From Dehalococcoidia bacterium (GTDB taxonomy: Bacteria > Chloroflexota > Dehalococcoidia > UBA3495): DNA of 14,318 nt. Positions 1,295-14,318 of this stretch are shown here, one piece after another (within the stretch, counting starts at the first letter, position 1; the number at the start of each line of letters is the position of its first letter). The stretch spans positions 1-14,318 of the forward strand of contig JASMCQ010000036.1 in the NCBI GenBank assembly GCA_030753265.1, given 5' to 3'. The notes beneath the pieces were generated by a model that saw only the letters and a list, made by a program, of their open reading frames with translations, made no database searches and had not been told where the DNA came from. The position numbers and the translations under genes are program-made.

Positions 1295-1327
1295 ATGGTA
1301 CCCGAATCAACGCGGAGAGGTGGGCCT

Positions 1328-2122
1328 ATGGCAGTCGCAGGAATTGATGTTGGAGCGGAAACGACCAAAGCCATAATCCTGGACGATGGCCGGGTTATTG
1401 CCCATGCCATCGGGCACCAGGGCAGGCATGCCGCCTCCACCGTGGCGGCATCGATGCTGAACGAGGCGGCTCAGAAGGCCGGTGTCTCCTTGGATCAGCT
1501 AGAGCACGTCGGCGTGACCGGCATAGGCAGAGAGCAGGTGAATGGGGGGTGGCTGAAAGTGCCCGAGCCCTCCGCTCTGGCCAGGGGCATACCGCACTTC
1601 GTTCCCTCGGCGAAAACCGTGCTGGACATTGGCGCCCAAAAGGCCCTGGCGGTCGGGTGCGTGGATAGCCGGGTCCGGAAGCAGGCCAAGAATGAGAAGT
1701 GCGCCTCGGGGAGCGGCCTGTATCTGGAAGTGGTGTGCGACATCTTGGGCGTCGACATCGCGGAGATGGGGGAATTGGCGCTGAGCGCGGAGGCGCCGGT
1801 AGAGGTGGCCCACGTCTGCACCGTCTTCGCCGAGTCCGAGATCATCTCCCTGATCCACGTCCAACGCGAGAAGCAGGAGAACATCGTCGCGGGGGTCCTG
1901 ATCGGCATGGCCAAACGGCTCTACCCGCTGGTGTTGAAAGCCGGAATGGAGCAGGATGTGGTGATAGTTGGCGGGGTGGCCAAGAACAAGGGCATCAAGA
2001 AGTTTTTGGAGGAGACGGTCGGGTTCTCCGTGCTTACCACCGAAGTCCCGGAAATCGTGGGCGCCGTCGGGGCCGCGGTGACCGCCCAGGCTTCAGTTCG
2101 GGCTTCGTCAGAGGGGAGTTAG
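1328..2122 (+). CDS. BadF/BadG/HgdC-type activator ATPase, divergent subunit
   Basis: 264 aa, BcrAD/BadFG/HgdC ATPase family. These ASKHA-fold enzymes use ATP hydrolysis to push one electron at very low potential into a reductase or dehydratase. Visible elements: phosphate-1 loop GIDVGAETTKA (residues 5-15), TGIGRE (64-69), the two cysteines that bind the dimer-bridging [4Fe-4S] cluster (C125 in NEKCASGSG, C164 in HVCTVFAES), and the adenosine-site VGGVAKN (214-220). The loop usually written DIGGQD is DIGAQK here (100-105), a departure shared with one of the two ATPase types in benzoyl-CoA reductases as I remember them. The ATG at 1328 is chosen over an in-frame ATG at 1295 because GGAGAGG (1314-1320) precedes it and homology starts there. 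It is two bases from the next gene and surely cotranscribed with it. Confidence 0.88.
   Translation: MAVAGIDVGAETTKAIILDDGRVIAHAIGHQGRHAASTVAASMLNEAAQKAGVSLDQLEHVGVTGIGREQVNGGWLKVPEPSALARGIPHFVPSAKTVLDIGAQKALAVGCVDSRVRKQAKNEKCASGSGLYLEVVCDILGVDIAEMGELALSAEAPVEVAHVCTVFAESEIISLIHVQREKQENIVAGVLIGMAKRLYPLVLKAGMEQDVVIVGGVAKNKGIKKFLEETVGFSVLTTEVPEIVGAVGAAVTAQASVRASSEGS
2111..2118 (+). promoter_or_regulatory. Ribosome binding site inside the end of the first activator gene
   Basis: GAGGGGAG lies within the last codons of the upstream gene, 6 nt before the ATG at 2125. It decides the start of the second activator; the same frame is open far upstream (from 1699) but only as an overlap shadow. The arrangement suggests translational coupling of the two ATPase subunits. 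Confidence 0.6.
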
Positions 2123-2124
2123 AT

Positions 2125-2970
2125 ATGTTGTTTGCTGGAATCGACGTAGGCAGTTTGACCGCCAAGGCGGCGATACTCAACGAAGGAGAGATCGTCTCTT
2201 GGGCGGTCATTCCCACCGGGCCCGACAGCGTGAAGGCCGCTCGGGACGCCCTGGCCAAGGCCCGAGCCTCGGCCTCACTCGACATGAATGACCTGAAAAG
2301 CATCGTGGCTACCGGCTACGGTAGGGAGAACGTCGATTTCTCCTCGGCCAGCGTGACCGAGATTTCCTGTCATGCCAAGGGCACCTGGTGGTTTCGCCCG
2401 GAGGTGAGGACCATTCTGGACATGGGCGGCCAGGACTGCAAGGCTATCAGCTGTGATGACAAGGGCCAAGTCCTGAAATTTGTCATGAACGATAAGTGCG
2501 CCGCGGGGACCGGGAGATACCTGGAGCGCGTCGCCAGGGCGTTGGAGATGCCTCTGGAGGAAATCGGGCCGACCTCGTTGACCGCCACCTCGGAACCGGT
2601 GAAGATCAGCGCCTACTGCACCGTATTTGCCGAGCAGGAAGCGTGGGGCCTGGTCCGCCGGGGCGTGGAAAGCTCGGCCATCCTTGCCGGGGCCTTCGAC
2701 GCCCTGGTGCGGCGGATCAAGAGCCTGCTGGCCCGCAACGGGGGAATAGAGGAAGAGTTCGCCATCAGCGGCGGGGTAGCTAAGAACATCGGCATCGTAT
2801 CGAGGGTGGAAACCGTGCTGGGCGTCAAGGCCCAGTTGGCGTTCGAGCCTCAAATCGTCGGAGCCGTTGGGGCTGCCGTCTTCGCCAAAGACCTGGCCTT
2901 GACCGGCGCGGTGGTCGGGGCGGCGCCGGTCGGGATAAGCATGGGGGCCGCGGGAGCAGAGCCGGTCTGA
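2125..2970 (+). CDS. BadF/BadG/HgdC-type activator ATPase, canonical subunit
   Basis: 281 aa, same ATPase family as its upstream neighbour but clearly a different paralogue. It has GIDVGSLTAKA (5-15), ATGYGREN (62-69), the canonical DMGGQDCKAI (99-108), cluster cysteines C125 in NDKCAAGTGRYLE and C165 in YCTVFAEQE, and SGGVAKN near the C-terminus. Two unlike ATPases side by side is the composition of ATP-dependent benzoyl-CoA reductases (BcrA/BcrD, BadF/BadG, BzdP/BzdQ); dehydratases normally use one homodimeric activator. Both being short (264 and 281 aa) looks more like the Azoarcus Bzd pair than Thauera Bcr, where one ATPase is much longer; this comparison is from memory. Expected role: heterodimeric electron activator for the next two gene products. 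Confidence 0.9.
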   Translation: MLFAGIDVGSLTAKAAILNEGEIVSWAVIPTGPDSVKAARDALAKARASASLDMNDLKSIVATGYGRENVDFSSASVTEISCHAKGTWWFRPEVRTILDMGGQDCKAISCDDKGQVLKFVMNDKCAAGTGRYLERVARALEMPLEEIGPTSLTATSEPVKISAYCTVFAEQEAWGLVRRGVESSAILAGAFDALVRRIKSLLARNGGIEEEFAISGGVAKNIGIVSRVETVLGVKAQLAFEPQIVGAVGAAVFAKDLALTGAVVGAAPVGISMGAAGAEPV

Positions 2971-3036
2971 AGACCCCGGGCGAACCACGGATTGGGTAGG
3001 TAGCGCCTGCACCACTCTACCACTCCGGGGATGGGA

Positions 3037-3055
3037 GGGCCCAGGGTTCGGGCCC
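3037..3055. other. GC hairpin between activator and catalytic subunit genes
   Basis: GGGCCC at 3037-3042 and again at 3050-3055 can pair across a 7-nt loop. It lies in the 137-nt spacer between the ATPase genes and the catalytic genes. It may stabilise or process the mRNA, or attenuate transcription. There is no T-run. Confidence 0.25.
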
Positions 3056-3092
3056 AGCACGGAGCCGGGAGGATGTAGCGCACTCAGCTAGA

Positions 3093-3100
3093 GAAAGGGG
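3093..3100 (+). promoter_or_regulatory. Ribosome binding site selecting a TTG start
   Basis: GAAAGGGG ends 7 nt before TTG at 3108, which is good spacing. The first in-frame ATG is at 3123 and has no better site, so TTG is the likely start of the first catalytic subunit. Confidence 0.5.
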
Positions 3101-3107
3101 TGCCACT

Positions 3108-4256
3108 TTGCAAAACACTGAAATGGAGGCCAGGCTTCAGCAACTGCTGGCGGCCAACGGCGAAGAGGAAAGGATCGCCCGGGGGAGAGAGCTGAAAAAG
3201 CAGGGCCGGCAGATTGTGGGCTCGGTTTGTCACTTCATGGCTAACGAACTCTTTTGGGCTGGGGGCCTGCAATCCTGGCGCATCAGCGGCACGTGGCGCG
3301 CCGCCGTCCCCAGGGCCGACGTGTACCGACCTCAAAATGCCTGCGGGTTCTGTACCCACGTGCTGGAGTCCATGTTCTCGGGAGACCTGGACTTCCTGGC
3401 GGGCGCCGTCATCTCCTTCAAGGACGATGACATGCGCCGCTTGCACGGGGTGATAGAGCACAAGAAGCAGGTCCCGTTCTTGCGATACCTCCACGTCCCG
3501 CATAAAGACATCGACACCAGCGTCAACTTCTTCACGGAAGAACTCCAGGACCTGCGGAAGGCCATCGAAGACCACTTCAAAGTGGAAATAACGGAACAGA
3601 CCCTGGGGGACGCGATTGGGCTCTACAACGAGAACCGCAGGCTCTTCCAGGAGCTATACGAGCTGCGCAAGCGGGACGTGCCCCCTCTATCGGGCGCCGA
3701 GTACCTGTCCATCACCACCGCGGCCTTCGGCCTGCCCCCCGACGATCTCAACCGGGAGCTGAAGGCGTTGATGCCCTACCTGAAGGAGCGAGAGGCCACC
3801 TTCGTGAGCATGCGTCCGCGGCTAATGGTCTCATCGGACCACCTGGACCACCCCGGCTACATGGAGATGATCGAGAGCGCCGGCTGTGTGGTGGCGATGG
3901 ACGACATGGACACCGGTACCGGCTCCTGCTGGGGCCAGGTGGACCCCAACCTGCCGCCCCTGGAAGCCTTGGCCCGCCACTACCTGACCGACGTGCCCAA
4001 TGCCCGGGCCGACTTCTGGGAAAAACAGTTGGACCAGGTGGTAAGCTGGGCCCGCGACTGGCGGATCGACGGCGTCCTTGAATTTCCCCAGATGTATTGC
4101 CAGCCTCGCCTGTATGGAGTGGTCTACTTTGAGGCCCGGATGAAACAGGCGGGTATCCCGGTGGTGACAATCCTGCGGGACTACGCGTTGACCAACATGG
4201 GGCAGCTTCGCACCAGGGTCGGCGCATTCCTGGAGGTGCTCAAGGTCCATGCCTAG
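3108..4256 (+). CDS. 2-hydroxyacyl-CoA dehydratase/benzoyl-CoA reductase family subunit (BcrC/BzdN-like)
   Basis: 382 aa from a TTG start (GAAAGGGG upstream); the alternative ATG at 3123 removes five residues. It belongs to the HgdB/BcrB/BcrC family, [4Fe-4S] proteins that receive a low-potential electron from the activator and reduce an acyl-CoA thioester to a ketyl radical. Supporting features are an N-terminal Cys region (C41, then NACGFC with C79 and C82), a middle region with SSDHLDHPG and AMDDMDTGTGS (about 242-273), and a late Cys after FPQMY (C331). Cys in the first and last regions are the probable cluster ligands. The length fits the shorter catalytic subunit (BcrC type), and the next gene is the longer partner. 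Whether it reduces an aromatic ring or dehydrates a 2-hydroxyacyl-CoA cannot be decided from the sequence alone. Confidence 0.83.
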   Translation: MQNTEMEARLQQLLAANGEEERIARGRELKKQGRQIVGSVCHFMANELFWAGGLQSWRISGTWRAAVPRADVYRPQNACGFCTHVLESMFSGDLDFLAGAVISFKDDDMRRLHGVIEHKKQVPFLRYLHVPHKDIDTSVNFFTEELQDLRKAIEDHFKVEITEQTLGDAIGLYNENRRLFQELYELRKRDVPPLSGAEYLSITTAAFGLPPDDLNRELKALMPYLKEREATFVSMRPRLMVSSDHLDHPGYMEMIESAGCVVAMDDMDTGTGSCWGQVDPNLPPLEALARHYLTDVPNARADFWEKQLDQVVSWARDWRIDGVLEFPQMYCQPRLYGVVYFEARMKQAGIPVVTILRDYALTNMGQLRTRVGAFLEVLKVHA

Positions 4257-4271
4257 CTGGCCCCTGTCCAA

Positions 4272-4313
4272 CCAGCCCAATGCCTGCGCGCGCGACGTGG
4301 CGGGGCGGGCTGG
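4272..4313. other. Inverted repeat in the spacer before the second catalytic subunit
   Basis: CCAGCCC (4272-4278) can pair with GGGCTGG (4307-4313) over a 28-nt interval that includes a GC-alternating run. It is in a 107-nt spacer without a gene. Significance is uncertain in such GC-rich DNA. Confidence 0.15.
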
Positions 4314-4363
4314 GAGAGCCATTTTCGGGCCCATAACAACTAAATTGTAAGGGAGGGCAACCG

Positions 4364-5647
4364 ATGAACTTTTTCGAGAGGGAAATAGCCAAGTACGAGC
4401 GGCGGGTCAAGAAGATCGAGGCGAACCCGGATCCTAATCTGCTGGCCAGCAACAAACTGCTTTACGAGATGTGGATTCACCATCGGAAGGATGAGTTGGC
4501 CGCCTGGAAGGCGGGGAAGCCCTTCGCCGTATTGGACGGGCTTGGCGCCGAGCGGATCCTTACCGCGATGGGTTTCCACACCATAGGTATGGCCGCCGAC
4601 GCCGACCGCGAGGTGCCGGAGTTCCCCAAGCACTTCGAAACCTCCAAGGCCTTGGGCCTCCACGACAGCCTCTGCGACCGGATCATCGGGGGCATGGGCA
4701 TGGTGTTTGACGGTGACCTGCCGGAGCCGGTCTTCTGCACCACCGGCAACTTCTCCTGCAGCCCCCACCAGTTGTCCGTTCTCGCCGTGGCCCGGCACTA
4801 CAAGGCGCCCCACTTCATGATTGACATTCCAATCGACTACAACGAAGACACCGTGAAATACATGGCGAAGCAACTCGAGGAGCTTATCGAGTTCGCCGAG
4901 GCTAAGGTCCCCGGGGTCAAGTTCGACATGGACAAGCTGGTCGAGGCCCAGGAGTGGGAAGCGAAGTTCATGGCCCACCAGAAAGAGGCCTACATGCTGC
5001 GGACGACCGTCCCCTGCCCCATCAGCGGCCGGGACGTCATCCGCATGCCCCGGTTCCACCACTCCGACCGCGAGCGGTCGGTGGAGTATTCACAGATGCT
5101 GGCCCAAGAGATGAAGGTGAAGGCCGATTCCGGCAAGGGGGCCCTGGAGAACGAGAGGCTGCGCTTCTACTGGATGGTCAGCGCGCCCTTCTACGCCAAC
5201 CCCTTCAAGTTCCTGGAGGATCGCGGCGTTGCCACGGTCATCTTCGAGTTCGGCGGCGCCTCCCGCTCTTCCGACTACAAGAACAGCCCTCCCGGTCTGG
5301 GCGAGCCGGAGTTCGGTCGCAAGCTGACTCCGCTGGAGGAGGAGGCCCGCTGGATGGGCTGGAACACCTGGGGCGGCGACACCGAGCGCCGGACCCAGTT
5401 CGTGCTGGACCAGGTTGAGTGCTTCAAGATCGATGGCATCGTTCACTTCCAGCAATCCGGTTGTCCCTTGGCTCTGGGCTCGGCACAGGTAATAGCGGAC
5501 CGGGCCGAGGACGCGCTGGGTATCCCCAGCCTCCTTCTGGAAGGGCGGATGCTGGACGAAGAGTTCTACAACGAGGAAGAGGTGCACGAGAAACTCGAAG
5601 AGTTCATCGAGCTGTGCATCGACCGCAAGGAGATGGCCGTCGTATAG
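4364..5647 (+). CDS. 2-hydroxyacyl-CoA dehydratase/benzoyl-CoA reductase family subunit (BcrB/BzdO-like)
   Basis: 427 aa, the second catalytic-type subunit, related to but clearly different from its upstream neighbour. The N-terminal half holds GLHDSLCDR (C104) and VFCTTGNFSCSPHQ (C125, C132); the C-terminal half holds HFQQSGCPLALG (C367), matching the position of the last cluster Cys in this family. MVSAPFYANPFKF (271-283) and FEFGGASRSSDY (294-305) fill the central domain. The length matches the larger catalytic subunit of class I benzoyl-CoA reductases. The start is fixed by GGGAGGG (4351-4357), 6 nt before ATG. With the 382-aa protein it should form the heterodimer that binds substrate, with the two activators docking on it. 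A 107-nt spacer and the same strand indicate one operon. Confidence 0.85.
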   Translation: MNFFEREIAKYERRVKKIEANPDPNLLASNKLLYEMWIHHRKDELAAWKAGKPFAVLDGLGAERILTAMGFHTIGMAADADREVPEFPKHFETSKALGLHDSLCDRIIGGMGMVFDGDLPEPVFCTTGNFSCSPHQLSVLAVARHYKAPHFMIDIPIDYNEDTVKYMAKQLEELIEFAEAKVPGVKFDMDKLVEAQEWEAKFMAHQKEAYMLRTTVPCPISGRDVIRMPRFHHSDRERSVEYSQMLAQEMKVKADSGKGALENERLRFYWMVSAPFYANPFKFLEDRGVATVIFEFGGASRSSDYKNSPPGLGEPEFGRKLTPLEEEARWMGWNTWGGDTERRTQFVLDQVECFKIDGIVHFQQSGCPLALGSAQVIADRAEDALGIPSLLLEGRMLDEEFYNEEEVHEKLEEFIELCIDRKEMAVV

Positions 5648-5923: not shown

Positions 5924-5939
5924 ATGGAAACTCCCGTGG
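5886..5939 (+). repeat. Three degenerate 18-nt tandem repeats overlapping the A1 start
   Basis: Three consecutive 18-nt units (5886-5903, 5904-5921, 5922-5939) share the pattern GGATGG-(A)-CTCCTGTTT with several substitutions. The first unit contains an ATG in the A1 frame that stops after five codons; the third contains the ATG used as the A1 start. The third unit passes directly into sequence homologous to the start of A2. Confidence 0.4.
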
Positions 5940-7195
5940 GGAAGGAGAGCGTGGTCAAGCGCGACGAAACCGCCCTGGGGCCCTACCGAGTCCTGGACCT
6001 TACCAACGAGTTGGGCGTCTTCGGCGCCAGGATGCTGGGCTGCCTGGGCGCCGACGTCATAAAGGTAGAGCCTCCCGGTGGCGACCCAATGCGTCGCCGA
6101 GGGCCCTTCTACCACGACTCGCCCGGCCCGGAGCGCAGCCTGTTCTGGCTCCATTTCAACGTGAACAAGCGTAGCGTAACCATCGACCTGGAGTCCCCGG
6201 CGGGCCAGCAGCTCTTTCGCCGGCTGGTCAAGACGGCCCACTTCGTTCTCGAGTGTTTCGAGCCGGGCTATCTGGACGGCCTGGGTATCGGCTATGAGAG
6301 CCTCAAGGAGGAGAACCCTTCCCTGGTGTGGACCGCCATCAGGCCCTTCGGCAGCCAGGGGCCCCGGGCTTCCTGGAAGGGCGGGCATCTGGTGACCAGC
6401 GCCACGAGCGGTTTCCTGCAGGGTACCGGCTCCCCCGACCTGCCCCCGGTCCAGGTGAGCCTGCCGGTGACCGAGCTTCTGACCGGCTCCTACGCCTGCG
6501 TGGGCAGCCTCATGGCCCATTTTCATCGCCAGCGCACTGGGAAAGGGCAGTTCGTGGACGTCTCAGCCCAGGAGAGCATGTTGCGGGCGGCGATCAACGC
6601 GCCGTCCTTCTACCGGAGCCACGGCCTGGTGGGGCGCCGGGACCCTTCGGGCCCCTATGTTCCCGGCTCCCAGAGCGAGCGGCGGCTTTTCGCCTGCAAA
6701 GACGGGTACATCACTTGCTACGTCACCTACTGGCCCGATCGCCGGGAGGTACGGGAGTGGATGGCCGGCGAGGGCATAGGCCAGGAGCTATATGGGGACG
6801 AATGGAACGAGCCGTTCGAAGAGGGCGGCCAGTTCACCGAGGTTCAGCGCGCCCACATGTATGAGCTGTTCGAGGCCTTCGCCCTGCGTCACGAACGCGA
6901 CGAACTGGTGGAGAAGGGCCAGGGACGGGGCATCCAGGTGTGTCCGTTCAAAGGGGTGGAGGGGGTATCCACGGACCTACACCTTCAGGAGCGGGAGTAC
7001 TTCGTCAGTCTGGAGCACCCGGAGTTGGGGACGGAGCTTTCGTATCAGGGACCGCCCTTCCGCATGGGGGAGAGCCCCTGGCACATCGGGAAAAGAGCCC
7101 CCTTCATCGGCGAGCACAACGAGGAGATATACCTGGAAGAGCTTGGCCTTTCCTCGGAAGAGATGGCCCGGCTACAACAGTTGGGAGCGGTATAG
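5924..7195 (+). CDS. Class III (CaiB/BaiF) CoA-transferase subunit A1, Glu at the usual Asp position
   Basis: 423 aa, family III CoA-transferase, which moves CoA between carboxylic acids through an aspartyl-CoA thioester. Family marks: YRVLDLTNELG (21-31), GADVIKVEPP (42-51), NVNKRSVTIDLE (79-90), GYESLKEENP (123-132), TGKGQFVDVS (205-214). Counting back from TGKGQ, the residue aligned to the catalytic Asp of B1 (and of formyl-CoA transferase/CaiB by motif) is E184 in PVTELLTG. It is about 77% identical (hand count) to A2 and has its partner B1 downstream, so I infer it is one subunit of a heteromeric enzyme comparable to BbsEF. Start uncertain: ATG 5924 has no strong ribosome site; GTG 5951 (residue 10) has AAGGAG at 5942-5947, but only 3 nt away. 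Confidence 0.85.
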   Translation: METPVGKESVVKRDETALGPYRVLDLTNELGVFGARMLGCLGADVIKVEPPGGDPMRRRGPFYHDSPGPERSLFWLHFNVNKRSVTIDLESPAGQQLFRRLVKTAHFVLECFEPGYLDGLGIGYESLKEENPSLVWTAIRPFGSQGPRASWKGGHLVTSATSGFLQGTGSPDLPPVQVSLPVTELLTGSYACVGSLMAHFHRQRTGKGQFVDVSAQESMLRAAINAPSFYRSHGLVGRRDPSGPYVPGSQSERRLFACKDGYITCYVTYWPDRREVREWMAGEGIGQELYGDEWNEPFEEGGQFTEVQRAHMYELFEAFALRHERDELVEKGQGRGIQVCPFKGVEGVSTDLHLQEREYFVSLEHPELGTELSYQGPPFRMGESPWHIGKRAPFIGEHNEEIYLEELGLSSEEMARLQQLGAV

Positions 7196-7241
7196 CGGCC
7201 TCAGCGACTATCACAGAAACTTTAGTGCCGACCCCAGCGGT

Positions 7242-7307
7242 CCTTCGACAGGCTCAGGACGAACGGATAGCGCGCTCCTGCTCCGTTCGTGGTGAGCTTG
7301 TCGAACC
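7242..7307. repeat. 66-nt inverted-repeat element, copy 1
   Basis: The 25-nt left arm (7242-7266, beginning CCTTCGACAGG) and right arm (7283-7307, beginning CCGTTCGTGG) are complementary at 20 of 25 positions around a 16-nt loop. From memory, this arm sequence is a common dispersed palindromic (REP/MITE-like) unit in GC-rich environmental bacterial genomes. No transposase or target-site duplication is visible. Confidence 0.7.
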
Positions 7308-7326
7308 ACCTTTTGAGATCGATATT
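7298..7326 (+). promoter_or_regulatory. Candidate promoter overlapping the repeat's right arm (copy 1)
   Basis: TTGTCG (7298-7303) and GATATT (7321-7326) are separated by exactly 17 bp, each matching four of six consensus bases. The -35 part lies in the right arm of the inverted repeat and the -10 just outside it. The pair is perfectly kept in the second unit. It could give B1 its own transcript. Confidence 0.25.
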
Positions 7327-7438
7327 CAGTGGTTCAGGGCAATTGGTGGCGCCAACCACCTGCCACCGGCGGCGGGCCGGGCCACCGGCAGGGGTTGAGC
7401 AGGCATTGTCGCGCCAAATCACGCAGCAGAGGTGTCCC

Positions 7439-8656
7439 ATGGACTCGAGGCAAGCGCTGGAAGGTGTTAGGGTCATCGACTTCTCCATCGCCGGGGTCGG
7501 CACTCTGACTACCCACCATTTCGCCGACTTCGGGGCCGAGGTCATCAAAGTGGAGTCCTCCACGCGGCTGGACGTCATGCGCAGGCACGGTCCCTGGGTG
7601 GGGGACACGGCGAATGTCGACAAGGCCGTGATGTTCCACCGGTTCAACCAGAACAAGAGGGGTATCCAGCTGAACCTGAAGCGGCCTGAAGGAGCGGAGC
7701 TGGCCAAAAGACTGGTCAGTGTTGCCGACGTGGTGGCGGAGAACTGGACCGTGAGGGCAATCGACAAGCTGGGGCTGAGCTACGCGGAGTTGAAGAAGGT
7801 CAAACCCGACATCATCATGATCGCGATGTCTCTGGCGGGCCAGTCCGGGCCTTACCAGAACTTCCGGGGACACGGGCCGGTCTTGGCCGCCATGACCGGC
7901 CTCTACGAATTCACCGGCTGGCCGGATGGGGAGCCCATGTCCCCCGGAGGCGCCCTGACCGACTACTACCTGCCCCCCGTGTGGGTGACGGCGGTTATGG
8001 CCGCCCTGGAGTACCGGGACCGGACGGGCAAGGGCCAGTTCATCGACGCGTCGGACTTCGAGTCCGCCCTGGACTTACTAGGTACCGCGATTGTTGACTT
8101 CAGCGCCAACGGCCACGTCCAAACCCGCCGGGGAAACCGGGACCCCGACGCCGCGCCCCATGGCGTGTACCGCTGCCAGGGCGATGACCGCTGGTGCGCC
8201 ATCACGGTGTTCAACGAGGAGCAATGGCTGGCCTTCTGTCACGTGATGGGCAATCCGCCCTGGACCCAAGAAGGGCGGTTCTCCACCGAAGCACAGCGGC
8301 ACGAGCATGCCGATGAGCTGGACCTTCTGGTGGAACTCTGGACCCGGGAGAAAAGCGCCGAGGACGCCGCAACCGTTCTACAGGAAGCCGGCGTGCCTGC
8401 CGGCGTCTCCCTCGACGGCGCTCAGCTGTGGGATGACCCCCAGCTAGCCTACCGGGGGCACTTCTGGGGCCTGGACGATCCTCGGGCGAGCCGGTTCACC
8501 TACGAGTCCCCGCCTTGCCTTTTGGATGAAACCCCCGCGCGCTACCGGTCCACGGCGCCAACCCTGGGCGAGGCCAACGGCTACGTCTACTCGGAGCTTC
8601 TGGGCCTGTCGGACGGGGAGTTCGCCCGCCTGGTGGAAGAGGGCGTCGTAGAGTAA
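7439..8656 (+). CDS. Class III (CaiB/BaiF) CoA-transferase subunit B1, catalytic Asp present
   Basis: 405 aa, family III CoA-transferase. Motifs in order: GVRVIDFSIAGVG (9-21), ADFGAEVIKVES (29-40), NQNKRGIQLNL (70-80), ADVVAENW (96-103), SLAGQSGPY (131-139), the nucleophile D175 in GALTDYYLP, and DRTGKGQFIDAS. The start at ATG 7439 is preferred over the longer open frame because AGAGGTG (7428-7434) precedes it and family homology begins at residue 7; upstream codons come from the repeat-containing spacer. Its partner is A1, which has Glu at the nucleophile position, so B1 is likely the conventional catalytic subunit of the pair. The closest neighbour by sequence is B2, the same length, downstream. 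Donor and acceptor acids are unknown. Confidence 0.88.
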   Translation: MDSRQALEGVRVIDFSIAGVGTLTTHHFADFGAEVIKVESSTRLDVMRRHGPWVGDTANVDKAVMFHRFNQNKRGIQLNLKRPEGAELAKRLVSVADVVAENWTVRAIDKLGLSYAELKKVKPDIIMIAMSLAGQSGPYQNFRGHGPVLAAMTGLYEFTGWPDGEPMSPGGALTDYYLPPVWVTAVMAALEYRDRTGKGQFIDASDFESALDLLGTAIVDFSANGHVQTRRGNRDPDAAPHGVYRCQGDDRWCAITVFNEEQWLAFCHVMGNPPWTQEGRFSTEAQRHEHADELDLLVELWTREKSAEDAATVLQEAGVPAGVSLDGAQLWDDPQLAYRGHFWGLDDPRASRFTYESPPCLLDETPARYRSTAPTLGEANGYVYSELLGLSDGEFARLVEEGVVE

Positions 8657-8733
8657 AAGATACTACCCTGGCGATCACCACCCCCACCTTCAACTGGCCC
8701 AGAGCCGGTCCAAAAGCGGATGGTGAATTTTCC

Positions 8734-8751
8734 GGTCAGTTGGAACTGACC
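8734..8751. promoter_or_regulatory. Palindrome immediately before A2
   Basis: GGTCAGTT (8734-8741) and AACTGACC (8744-8751) are perfect inverted 8-mers separated by GG, ending 5 nt before the A2 ATG. This is the shape of a dimeric-regulator operator, or of an RNA hairpin occupying the place where a ribosome site would be. It has no counterpart before A1. Confidence 0.4.
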
Positions 8752-8756
8752 CCCAA

Positions 8757-10016
8757 ATGGGAAAGGAGAACGTGGTCAACCGCGACGAAACCGCCCTAGG
8801 GCCCTACCGGGTCCTGGACCTCACCAACGAGTTGGGCGTCTTCAGCGGCCGGATGCTGGGTTGCCTGGGCGCCGACGTAATCAAGATCGAGCCGCCCGGG
8901 GGCGATGCCATGCGCCGCCGCGGCCCGTTCTACCATGACTCGCCCCACCCGGAGCGCAGCCTGTTCTGGCTCCTGTACAACGTGAACAAGCGCAGCGTAA
9001 CCCTCGATCTTGAGTCCGAGCCCGGCCGGCGGCTCTTCCGCCGGCTGGTCCAAACGGCCCACTTCGTTCTCGAGTGTTTCCCGCCCGGCTATCTGGACAG
9101 CCTCGGTATCGGCTATGAAAGCCTCAAGCAGGAGAACCCCTCCCTGGTGTGGACCGCCATCGCGCCCTTCGGGAGCCAGGGGCCCAGGGCTTCCTGGCAA
9201 GGCGGGCATCTGGTGGCCAGCGCCATGAGCGGCTTCCTCCAGGGCACCGGCTCTCCCGACCTGCCGCCGGTCCAAGTGAGCCTGCCGGTGACGGAGCTGA
9301 TGACCGGCAGCCACGCCTGCGTGGGCACCATGATGGCCCACTTCCATCGCCAGCAGACCGGGGAAGGGCAGTATGTGGACGTGTCGGCCCAGGAGAGCAT
9401 GATGGCGGCCACGCAGACCACCTCCGTCGTCTACAAGAGCCACGGCGTCGTGGGAAAACGGGACCCTTCGGGGCCCTATCTTCCCGGTATCCGGTACGAG
9501 CGGCGCCTATTCGCCTGTCAGGACGGTTACATCACCTCCTACGTCACCTACTGGCCCGATCGCCGGCAGGTGCGCGAGTGGATGTCTGGCGAAGGCGTGG
9601 GGCAGGAGCTGTACGGGGAAGAGTGGCACGACGTATTCGAGGAGGGCGGCGAATTCACCGACTCGCAGCGCGCCCGAATGTACGAACTGTTCGAGGCATT
9701 CGCCTTGAACCATCAACGGGACCGGCTGGTGGAGGCGGGCCAGGGCCGGGGCATCCAGGTGTGCGCGGTCAAGGGGCCGGACCAAGTGTACCAGGACCAG
9801 CACCTCCGGGAGCGCGAATACTTCGTCCACTTGGAGCACCCGGAGTTGGAAACCGAGCTGCCCTGTCAGGGTCCCCCCTTCCGTATGGAAGAAAGCCCCT
9901 GGCGAATCTGGCGAAGGGCCCCGCTCATCGGCGAGCACAACGAGGAGATACTGGTTGGGGAGCTTGAGGTCTCCCCAGCTGAGCTGACGGAACTGCGAAA
10001 ACAAGGGATCGTATAG
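8757..10016 (+). CDS. Class III (CaiB/BaiF) CoA-transferase subunit A2, Glu at the usual Asp position
   Basis: 419 aa; aligns to A1 without visible gaps apart from four extra N-terminal residues in A1. Family marks are kept: YRVLDLTNELG (17-27), GADVIKIEPP (38-47), NVNKRSVTLDLE (75-86). As in A1, the position of the catalytic Asp is Glu: E180 in PVTELMTG. That both copies keep Glu argues against a random loss. The most changed blocks relative to A1 are residues about 219-230 and the last 20 residues, plus a patch near VKGPDQVYQDQ; these are candidate specificity or interface regions. ATG 8757 follows a palindrome and lacks a clear ribosome site; GTG 8772 has AAGGAG nearby at a short 3-nt spacing, as in A1. 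Confidence 0.85.
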   Translation: MGKENVVNRDETALGPYRVLDLTNELGVFSGRMLGCLGADVIKIEPPGGDAMRRRGPFYHDSPHPERSLFWLLYNVNKRSVTLDLESEPGRRLFRRLVQTAHFVLECFPPGYLDSLGIGYESLKQENPSLVWTAIAPFGSQGPRASWQGGHLVASAMSGFLQGTGSPDLPPVQVSLPVTELMTGSHACVGTMMAHFHRQQTGEGQYVDVSAQESMMAATQTTSVVYKSHGVVGKRDPSGPYLPGIRYERRLFACQDGYITSYVTYWPDRRQVREWMSGEGVGQELYGEEWHDVFEEGGEFTDSQRARMYELFEAFALNHQRDRLVEAGQGRGIQVCAVKGPDQVYQDQHLREREYFVHLEHPELETELPCQGPPFRMEESPWRIWRRAPLIGEHNEEILVGELEVSPAELTELRKQGIV

Positions 10017-10062
10017 CGGCCTCAGCGACTATCACAAAACCTTTAGTGCCGACTCCAGCGGT

Positions 10063-10128
10063 CCTTCGACAGGCTCAGGACGAACGGATAGCGCGCTCCT
10101 GCTCCGTTCGTGGTGAGCTTGTCGAACC
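10063..10128. repeat. 66-nt inverted-repeat element, copy 2
   Basis: Identical to copy 1, 2821 nt downstream: arms at 10063-10087 and 10104-10128 with the same 16-nt loop. It was most likely copied with the A-B unit rather than inserted independently, since it lies at the same place relative to the flanking genes. Confidence 0.7.
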
Positions 10129-10147
10129 ACCTTTTGAGATCGATATT
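10119..10147 (+). promoter_or_regulatory. Candidate promoter overlapping the repeat's right arm (copy 2)
   Basis: TTGTCG (10119-10124), 17 bp, GATATT (10142-10147). Same arrangement as before B1 and unchanged in sequence; could serve B2. Confidence 0.25.
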
Positions 10148-10266
10148 CAGTGGTTCAGGCAAAGCGGCGGCGCCAACCACCGGCCACCAGCCACCGGCGG
10201 CGGGCTGGGCCACCGGCAGGGGTTAAGCAGGCATGCTCGCGGCAAATCACGCAGCAGAGGTGTCCC

Positions 10267-11484
10267 ATGAACCCAAAGCAGGCGTTGGAAGGCATCAGGG
10301 TCATAGATTTCTCCATAGCAGGAGTCGGCCCGTTGACCACCCATCACTTCGCCGACTTCGGGGCCGAAGTGATCAAAGTGGAGACATCCACCCGTTTGGA
10401 CGTCATGCGCCGGCACGGACCCTGGGTGGGCGGCCCTCCGGACGCCGATAAGGCCGTGATGTTCCACCGGTACAACCAGAACAAGAGGGGGATCCAGCTG
10501 AACCTGAAACGCCCGGAAGGGATGGAATTGGCCAAAGGCCTGGTGAAGGTTGCCGACATCGTCGCGGAGAATTGGACCGTGAGGGCCATCGACAATCTGG
10601 GGCTGGGCTACGATGAGTTGAAGAAGGTCAAGCCGGACATTATCATGATAGCAATGTCTCTGGCCGGCCAGTCCGGGCCCTACCAGAACTTCCGGGGCCA
10701 CGGCCCGGTCCTGGCCGCGATGACCGGGCTCTACAAGGTCACCGGCTGGCCGGAGAGGGAACCCATGTCTCCCGGAGGAGCGCTGACCGACCACTTCCTG
10801 CCCCCGGTCTGGGTTACGGCGGTCATGGCCGCCCTGGAGTACCGCAACCGGACGGGCAAGGGCCAGTTCATCGACGCCTCGGATTTCGAGGCCGCCATTG
10901 ACCTGCTGGGCACCGCGATAATGGATTACAGCGCCAACGGCAGGGTTCAGACCCGCCGGGGGAACAGCGACCCCGAAGCCTCTCCCCACGGCGTCTACCG
11001 TTGCCAGGGCGATGACCGCTGGTGCGCCATCACCGTCTTCAACGAGGAGCAATGGCTGGCATTTTGCCGGGTGTTGGGCAACCCGGCCTGGACCCGTGAA
11101 GAGCGGTTCTCCACGGAATCAAATCGGCGCGGGCACACCGATGAACTGGACCGGCTGATCGAGAATTGGACCGAGCAAAGAGATGCCGAGGAGACCGCCA
11201 CCGTGCTGCAGGCGGCCGGCGTTCCGGTCGGTATCTCCCTCGACAGCGCCCAAGTGAGGGCTGAACCCCAGCTACGCCACCGGGGGCACTTCTGGGACGT
11301 GGAAGACCCCGAGGTTAGAGATTTCACCTACGAGGCCTCGCCCGCTTTCCTGAGCGAAACCCCGGCCCGCTTCCGGCGCCCGGCGCCATCCCTGGGCGAG
11401 GCCAACGGCTACGTTTATTCCGAACTCCTGGGCCTCTCCGACGGGGAAATTGCCCGGCTGGTGGAAGAGGGCGTCATCGAGTGA
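10267..11484 (+). CDS. Class III (CaiB/BaiF) CoA-transferase subunit B2, catalytic Asp present
   Basis: 405 aa, the same length as B1 and closely similar throughout. Motifs: GIRVIDFSIAGVG (9-21), ADFGAEVIKVET (29-40), NQNKRGIQLNL (70-80), SLAGQSGPY (131-139), nucleophile D175 in GALTDHFLP, RTGKGQFIDAS. ATG 10267 has AGAGGTG upstream, as in B1; the longer open frame upstream is spacer sequence. Partner of A2, forming the second copy of the A-B unit. Differences from B1 concentrate at VGGPPDADK (55-63), YKVTGWPERE (156-165) and the C-terminal third, which suggests altered acyl specificity rather than decay; the frame is intact. Confidence 0.88.
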   Translation: MNPKQALEGIRVIDFSIAGVGPLTTHHFADFGAEVIKVETSTRLDVMRRHGPWVGGPPDADKAVMFHRYNQNKRGIQLNLKRPEGMELAKGLVKVADIVAENWTVRAIDNLGLGYDELKKVKPDIIMIAMSLAGQSGPYQNFRGHGPVLAAMTGLYKVTGWPEREPMSPGGALTDHFLPPVWVTAVMAALEYRNRTGKGQFIDASDFEAAIDLLGTAIMDYSANGRVQTRRGNSDPEASPHGVYRCQGDDRWCAITVFNEEQWLAFCRVLGNPAWTREERFSTESNRRGHTDELDRLIENWTEQRDAEETATVLQAAGVPVGISLDSAQVRAEPQLRHRGHFWDVEDPEVRDFTYEASPAFLSETPARFRRPAPSLGEANGYVYSELLGLSDGEIARLVEEGVIE

Positions 11485-13342: not shown

Positions 13343-14318
13343 ATGACTGCACCAATGAATGGAATACGAATCCTGGAGTTGACCCGGGTGGGTCCCGGCG
13401 CCTTCTGTACCAGGCTGATGGCGGACATGGGCGCCGAGGTGATCAAGATCGATGGGCCCGACGACCCCGTTCGAGGGTCCCGGGGCACCGACCGGGAGCA
13501 AAGGATTCGACGCCAGGGGCTCGACCGCAACAAGAAGAGCATCGTCCTTGACCTGAAGCAGGCCGCCAGCCAGGAGGTTTTCCAAAAGCTGGCCGCCACG
13601 GCCGACGTGGTGGTGGAAGGGTACAGGCCGGGGATCGCCAAGCGGCTGGGCGTGGATTACGACACGATCCGAGCCATCAACCCCCGGATCGTCTACTGCT
13701 CGCTCAGCGGCTACGGTCAGACCGGGCCTTACAGCCACCTCCCCGGCCACGACCTGAACTACATGGCCATGTCCGGTGTCCTGGACATGCTCGGCACCCG
13801 GGGCGGCCCGCCGGTCGAGCCCCTCAACCTGATCGCCGACCTCTCGTCGGCATCCCTGCACGGAGTCATCGCGGTCCTGGCCGCGCTGATGGCCCGGCAG
13901 CAAACGGGAAAGGGCCAACATCTCGATGTGTCCTACGTCTATGGGGTGGTCAGCATCATGAGCGGCTCCGGTGCCCTCTACAGCCACATCCTGGAAGGTG
14001 TAGGCCCCAAGCGGGGGGAGCCCGCCACCGCCGGCTCCTACCCTTACTACAGCGCCTACGAGACCAAGGATGGGAAGTGGTTCACCATCGGGTGCATCGA
14101 GCACCACTTCTGGGAGAACTTCTGCCGCGTCATCGAGCGGGAGGACCTGCTCCCCTGGAAGCAAGCCCCCGAGCATCAGGACGCTCCCCCCACCGAGGAG
14201 TGGGACGAGGTGCACCGGGAGCTGGAGAGAATCTTCATGACCCGGACCAGGGACGAATGGTGGGACCTTTTGAAGGACCACAACATCTGCATCGGCAAGG
14301 TTTACACCATCGACGAAG
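13343..14318 (+). CDS. Alpha-methylacyl-CoA racemase-like protein (partial, runs off the window)
   Basis: The first 325 codons are visible with no stop before the window end. It belongs to the CaiB/BaiF fold but carries the racemase residues: H136 and D137 in PGHDLNY, D166 in LIADLSS, and E253 in GCIEHHFW. These correspond in motif and nearly in spacing to H126, D127, D156 and E241 of the Mycobacterium tuberculosis racemase MCR. The expected reaction is inversion of the 2-methyl stereocentre of a branched acyl-CoA via an enolate. Other marks: RILELTRVGPG (9-19), GAEVIKIDGP (30-39), DRNKKSIVLDL (61-71), TGKGQHLDVS (188-197). AAGGAGGGG (13331-13339) supports ATG 13343. It is 87 nt after the flavoprotein and likely cotranscribed. 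The C-terminus is missing, so the assignment rests on the catalytic motifs. Confidence 0.83.
   Translation, partial: MTAPMNGIRILELTRVGPGAFCTRLMADMGAEVIKIDGPDDPVRGSRGTDREQRIRRQGLDRNKKSIVLDLKQAASQEVFQKLAATADVVVEGYRPGIAKRLGVDYDTIRAINPRIVYCSLSGYGQTGPYSHLPGHDLNYMAMSGVLDMLGTRGGPPVEPLNLIADLSSASLHGVIAVLAALMARQQTGKGQHLDVSYVYGVVSIMSGSGALYSHILEGVGPKRGEPATAGSYPYYSAYETKDGKWFTIGCIEHHFWENFCRVIEREDLLPWKQAPEHQDAPPTEEWDEVHRELERIFMTRTRDEWWDLLKDHNICIGKVYTIDE

Follow-up and report, generated by a model that had tools for sequence, protein, structure and literature searches.

Two tandem gene pairs for putative BbsEF-type class III CoA-transferases with the nucleophilic aspartate in one subunit

We analyzed a 14,318-nucleotide (nt) contig of a Dehalococcoidia bacterium (JASMCQ010000036.1, assembly GCA_030753265.1; hereafter the window), which carries two tandem gene pairs for subunits of class III coenzyme A (CoA)-transferases, designated A1-B1 and A2-B2. 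Each A-B pair is very probably a BbsEF-type obligate heterodimer in which only the active site in B works. We infer the single active site, the role of A and the obligate dimer from the protein family, the alignments, the absence of the nucleophilic Asp in A, its conservation in B, the pairing of the genes, natural fusions and purifying selection. As judged from the sequences, the best reading is that A is a non-nucleophilic partner and that its Glu at the nucleophile position is a local variant.

The first-pass annotation of this DNA had assigned all four proteins to the class III family, and the profile search agreed: PF02515 bit scores were 260.6 (A1), 345.3 (B1), 274.1 (A2) and 364.4 (B2), against a curated cut-off of 23.3. 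The best matches in the PDB were the two chains of benzylsuccinate CoA-transferase 9fn0, chain A for A1 and A2 and chain B for B1 and B2. The AlphaFold2 (AF2) model of A1 had a predicted local distance difference test score (pLDDT) of 90.3, and its top Foldseek match was 9fn0_A with a template-modelling (TM) score of 0.85. Our comparison with 9fn0 and 9fol is based on entry titles and sequence alignments, the numbering of chain B being obtained by counting through the alignment. Counted in this way, D175 of B was paired with Asp178 of 9fn0 chain B, and E184 of A1 with Y171 of chain A, whose residue 178 is Ala. Entry 9fol is titled 'D178-CoA adduct + succinate (weakly occupied)'. BbsEF had been proposed as a precedent for two cooperating class III subunits, and the chain-by-chain matches and the Asp found only in chain B bear this out. 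Since 9fn0 and 9fol have this Asp in chain B and none in chain A, the precedent already combines an Asp subunit with a non-Asp subunit; because the window pairs match an enzyme with a solved structure, they are mostly ordinary. The open-access literature search turned up no paper reporting the structure of 9fn0/9fol or a BbsE subunit that is silent.

The catalytic Asp of class III enzymes is present in B1 and B2 (D175) and is replaced by Glu in A1 (E184) and A2 (E180), as the first-pass annotation had noted. The motifs are ALTDYY in B1, ALTDHF in B2, PVTELL in A1 and PVTELM in A2, and the four residues share one column in the MAFFT alignment. The position had been located by counting 20 residues back from TGKGQ/TGEGQ; the position is right, and the correct distance in all four proteins is 21 residues before the T of this motif. 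The Asp of human SUGCT (9br6, 9br7) is paired with this Glu in the printed phmmer alignments of both A1 and A2. Misalignment as the cause of the Glu was rejected on the basis of these SUGCT alignments, in which A2 has no gap nearby and the nearest gap in A1 is nine residues further on. By sequence, A1 and A2 thus belong to the class III fold family, not on their own to its catalytic class.

We surveyed the residue at this site among the best 120 of 7327 matches to A and the best 120 of 3270 matches to B, and among the domains of 104 loci and the window, from which duplicates and domains not covering the site were removed. The A count excludes five window rows, and P0001, at 99% identity to A1, is probably that protein itself. 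Locus domains were called A or B by profile scores more than 60 bits apart and not by this residue alone, although the profiles include the site. Asp was present in all 120 listed B homologues. The 120 listed A homologues had Tyr (83), Asp (8), Glu (7), Phe (5), Ser, His and Trp (4 each), Asn (2), and Leu, Cys and Ala (1 each). In the loci, Asp occurred in 60/60 B domains, 2/64 A domains and 49/51 unclassified domains of the canonical type; the two exceptions among the latter (L014, L015) read Phe in the context LIADFAAG, with an Asp offset by one place. Fisher's test for Asp in separate B versus A domains gave p = 3e-33, with related domains treated as independent. The proposed fixed Asp/Glu split therefore holds for the Asp of B and fails for A, whose residue varies and is mostly Tyr. 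The suggestion that A is a non-catalytic partner is supported as probable. The Asp-bearing A subunits are P0007, P0009, P0014, P0019, P0028, P0034, P0038 and P0039 among the listed homologues, and L101 and L033 among the loci; as read from their sequences, both sites of these enzymes may be active, or one may have been regained. Eighteen B homologues span 480-539 amino acids (aa), and the two of these that were printed (P0154, P0213) carry a block like 'APHGAYRC...DRWC' twice.

We built a tree of 137 hand-chosen rows, short ones being omitted (59 from the list of 240 homologues; from the loci, 59 A, 8 B and 9 unclassified domains; and A1 and A2). In this quick search, the A, B and canonical-type rows each fell on one side of a branch, with Shimodaira-Hasegawa-like approximate likelihood ratio test (SH-aLRT) values of 96, 99 and 98. 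The site required 43 changes across the 120 A rows, 5 of them for Glu; when the tree was rebuilt without the site and its two neighbours, 44 changes were required, again 5 for Glu, and the same three groups were obtained. In a joint alignment that drew on part of the listed homologues (A, 137 rows; B, 108; canonical-type, 49), 376 columns could be compared. Only at the nucleophile column did every B and every canonical-type row share one residue from which A differed. A proline (P240 of B1) was present in 107/107 B rows and 46/47 canonical-type rows that are ungapped at its column, as against only 12/137 A rows (14/137 were gapped), and it is absent from A1 and A2.

These results bear on the possibility that A1 and A2 use Glu184 and Glu180 as real nucleophiles, through a glutamyl anhydride and thioester, so that each dimer would have two active sites of different chemistry. 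The Glu places a carboxylate exactly in the nucleophile column, near the start of a helix (residues 182-205) in the A1 model, and both copies keep it, as do P0001-P0005, the five A homologues ranked closest in the list (77-99% identity; two are partial). The prevalence of Tyr in the column, the at least five separate origins of Glu on either tree, and the lack in A1 and A2 of the proline kept by B and canonical-type rows argue against it. The D169E mutant of FRC is reportedly inactive. This mutant has been made and solved, according to the title of entry 1vgr. We consider a nucleophilic Glu in A very improbable, and the glutamyl thioester once suggested for A appears unlikely from sequence comparison: since the A position is mostly Tyr and otherwise many other residues, A does not owe its retention to a conserved chemistry of Glu. 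A related proposal, that the second site regained a carboxylate and works again in the window clade and in Asp-bearing A subunits, so that one aspartyl site and one glutamyl site would work in the same enzyme, possibly each for its own acid, is likewise very improbable.

B lay beside A for 59 of the 64 A domains in the loci and the window, and nine of these were fused. The partner B residue was Asp in 57 of the 59 pairs, and the site was unreadable in the other two. The A domains without a close B were L021, L027, L030 and L033, near the locus end, and L066, which is not near an end; in L033 a B is found about 5 kb from the A domain. The natural A-B fusions are single open frames (L008, L018, L019, L022, L023, L032, L038, L054 and L074), and 7/9 come from records named Chloroflexota or its classes. 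By eye, P0045, P0090, P0103 and P0172 also consist of A-type followed by B-type sequence. That A and B are instead two separate neighbouring enzymes that form no complex, A being racemase-like or some unrelated CoA enzyme, seems scarcely plausible. At 243 and 250 nt, the spacers between A and B in the window do exceed most A-B gaps seen elsewhere, but the adjacency, the fusions and the best PDB matches, which are two chains of one enzyme, speak against separate enzymes.

In the proposed heterodimer, Asp175 of B would attack the acyl-CoA donor, the reaction would pass through acyl-anhydride and aspartyl-CoA intermediates on B, and CoA would then be handed to a carboxylic acid. A would retain the fold and interlock with B; with the family's interlocked dimers as a guide, its small domain may be lent to, or close, the active site of B and help to choose the acid. 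The nucleophile of A would have been lost and the position would have drifted to Tyr, Glu and other residues. Alternatively, A could be more than a plain scaffold, namely a regulatory or half-of-sites partner whose degenerate site continues to bind CoA or a second acid. Many positions of the Rossmann part (for example, A1 G42, A43, V45, E49, R57 and K82) are among the residues that all three groups conserve, and the A position has an aromatic bias, whereas fold constraints alone could preserve those Rossmann residues; we regard this alternative as unlikely, yet worth keeping in mind.

Some points limit the case for the single-site heterodimer. Some A subunits may be active, as Asp occurs in 8/120 listed A homologues and 2/64 locus A domains. 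Tyr, Phe, Trp and His together account for 81/120 A rows of the tree, so the A site is still under some constraint, and this bias suggests that the position is not random and may have a role. For a physical complex the evidence is indirect, namely the fusions and the structure predicted for an A-B fusion from another genome, whose predicted template-modelling score (pTM) of 0.89 was obtained from 7 sequences and without an interface score. Finally, the link of B D175 to the D178 adduct depends on the 9fol title and on counted numbering.

A1, B1, A2 and B2 are open frames without internal stops. The start of B1 was placed at an ATG within a longer mechanical open reading frame (ORF; 7289-8656), and that of B2 at an ATG within ORF 10150-11484. 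The copies are 77.6% (A1/A2) and 80.0% (B1/B2) identical and A and B are 28-33% identical; by these values, A1/A2 and B1/B2 are tandem duplicates and A and B are distant paralogues. The ratio of nonsynonymous to synonymous substitution rates (dN/dS) between copies was 0.26 for A and 0.19 for B, so both subunits are under purifying selection, which indicates that A matters as a protein. Retention of Glu in both copies had been taken to imply a function. This stands for A as a protein; for the Glu itself retention is weak evidence, because A1 and A2 are duplicates in a Glu clade of four rows (A1, A2, P0002, P0003) and the nearest row outside, P0006, has Ser. Among 393 genomes in the class of G001, three matched at E 1e-105, the best being 49% identical, with at most four candidates scored per listed genome.

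The two A-B spacers share 229/243 aligned bases, including a single run of 105, whereas identity between copies in the flanking coding sequences is only 81-82%. Their hairpin is imperfect, with 36-base arms that are 78% complementary. The near-identity of the spacers perhaps reflects an element like a repetitive extragenic palindrome (REP) or a miniature inverted-repeat transposable element (MITE), or homogenisation.

On its + strand the window carries, in order, an SMP-30-like gene, two BcrAD_BadFG ATPases, two HGD-D proteins, A1, B1, A2, B2, a PF12831 flavoprotein and a truncated class III CoA-transferase (Table 1). A canonical-type class III gene also follows A-B in L002, L014 and L015.

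Table 1 Positions of the CoA-transferase genes, their spacers and other features of the window.
Feature	Position	Strand	Description
Activase-type ATPase (BcrAD_BadFG)	1295..2122	+	PF01869; TIGR00241 above its cut-off
Second activase-type ATPase (BcrAD_BadFG), closest to BzdQ	2107..2970	+	PF01869; TIGR00241 above cut-off; TIGR03192 242 bits, below cut-off 380
HGD-D protein, BzdN-like	3108..4256	+	PF06050; top PDB match BzdN 8s02_B, E 1e-31
HGD-D protein, BzdO-like	4364..5647	+	PF06050; top PDB match BzdO 8s02_A, E 2e-13
A1	5924..7195	+	423 aa; BbsE-type class III CoA-transferase subunit; Glu184 at nucleophile position; PF02515 E 3e-77; top PDB match 9fn0_A, E 2e-69
A1 Glu184 codon	6473..6475	+	Class III nucleophile column; aligned with Tyr171 of 9fn0_A
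A1-B1 spacer	7196..7438	+	Imperfect hairpin; near-identical to A2-B2 spacer
B1	7439..8656	+	405 aa; BbsF-type class III subunit; putative nucleophile Asp175; PF02515 E 6e-103; top PDB match 9fn0_B, E 1e-78
B1 Asp175 codon	7961..7963	+	Aligned with Asp178 of 9fn0_B; D178 is the CoA adduct residue in the 9fol title
A2	8757..10016	+	419 aa; second BbsE-type subunit; Glu180; top PDB match 9fn0_A, E 3e-61
A2-B2 spacer	10017..10266	+	Carries the hairpin seen in the A1-B1 spacer
B2	10267..11484	+	405 aa; second BbsF-type subunit; Asp175; top PDB match 9fn0_B, E 2e-80
Third class III CoA-transferase, canonical-type	13343-14317	+	Asp at site; downstream of flavoprotein; cut by window end

The genes upstream of A1 resemble those of benzoyl-CoA reductase. 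In the printed alignment of the HGD-D protein with BzdN, Cys was paired with Cys in three blocks. The NCBIfam equivalog scores for BzdN, BzdO and BzdQ were 109, 54 and 242 bits, none reaching the cut-offs of 454, 449 and 380; by these profiles, the upstream genes are relatives of BzdNOPQ, not members. The activases and the BzdN-like and BzdO-like HGD-D proteins (1295-5647) possibly form a divergent four-subunit benzoyl-CoA-reductase-like enzyme. Of 86 loci besides the window, two (L004 and L018) contained matches to its HGD-D or activase proteins; L087-L104 lie outside this count. L018 has two HGD-D genes directly upstream of its A-B fusion, and L004 has two HGD-D genes and an activase about 6-7 kb upstream of A-B. 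The link of A-B with reductase-like genes thus recurs but is rare among those 86 loci. It is a reasonable guess that CoA transfer activates an acid, which a benzoyl-CoA-reductase-like enzyme then reduces. No other bbs-like or benzylsuccinate pathway gene was recognised among the window proteins scanned.

We compared the pairs with known systems. BbsEF, the succinyl-CoA:(R)-benzylsuccinate CoA-transferase of toluene breakdown (9fn0, 9fol), likewise has two class III subunits with the Asp in the F-type chain only. A1 is 36% identical to it (VIA alignment), and the window differs in having Glu where the E-type subunit of BbsEF has Tyr and in having two pairs in tandem. SptAB, the succinyl-CoA:phthalate CoA-transferase, is reportedly composed of two different subunits. 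It is likened to the window pairs by description, as a family III enzyme with an aromatic dicarboxylate acceptor; in contrast with SptAB, no UbiD-like decarboxylase was found among the window proteins scanned. DddD is one polypeptide with two CaiB/BaiF-like domains and by this description resembles the A-B fusions; its chemistry differs. FRC/YfdW, CaiB, SUGCT and MCT, which are single-gene class III enzymes, have the same fold, and SUGCT shares the nucleophile column in the alignment; they have one kind of subunit, bearing Asp, in contrast to the two kinds in the window. Published reports describe SptAB as family III and discuss its active-site Asp (PMC11659651), give one Asp-bearing kind of subunit for the single-gene enzymes (PMC9196870), name DddD as CaiB/BaiF-like and record many CaiB/BaiF proteins in SAR202 genomes (PMC5395668).

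What is new here, mildly, is that the A position has drifted, that A and B also occur as fusions, and that a BzdN/BzdO-like reductase lies upstream. The results correct how such genes are read: the residue of a BbsE-like subunit at the nucleophile position is no clue to its chemistry, and the Asp of its B partner is kept without exception in the sets examined. They also link one A-B set to a possible benzoyl-CoA-reductase-like enzyme. The uncharacterised pairs and the nine natural fusions that they add could help to explain why a symmetric dimer gave up one of its sites.
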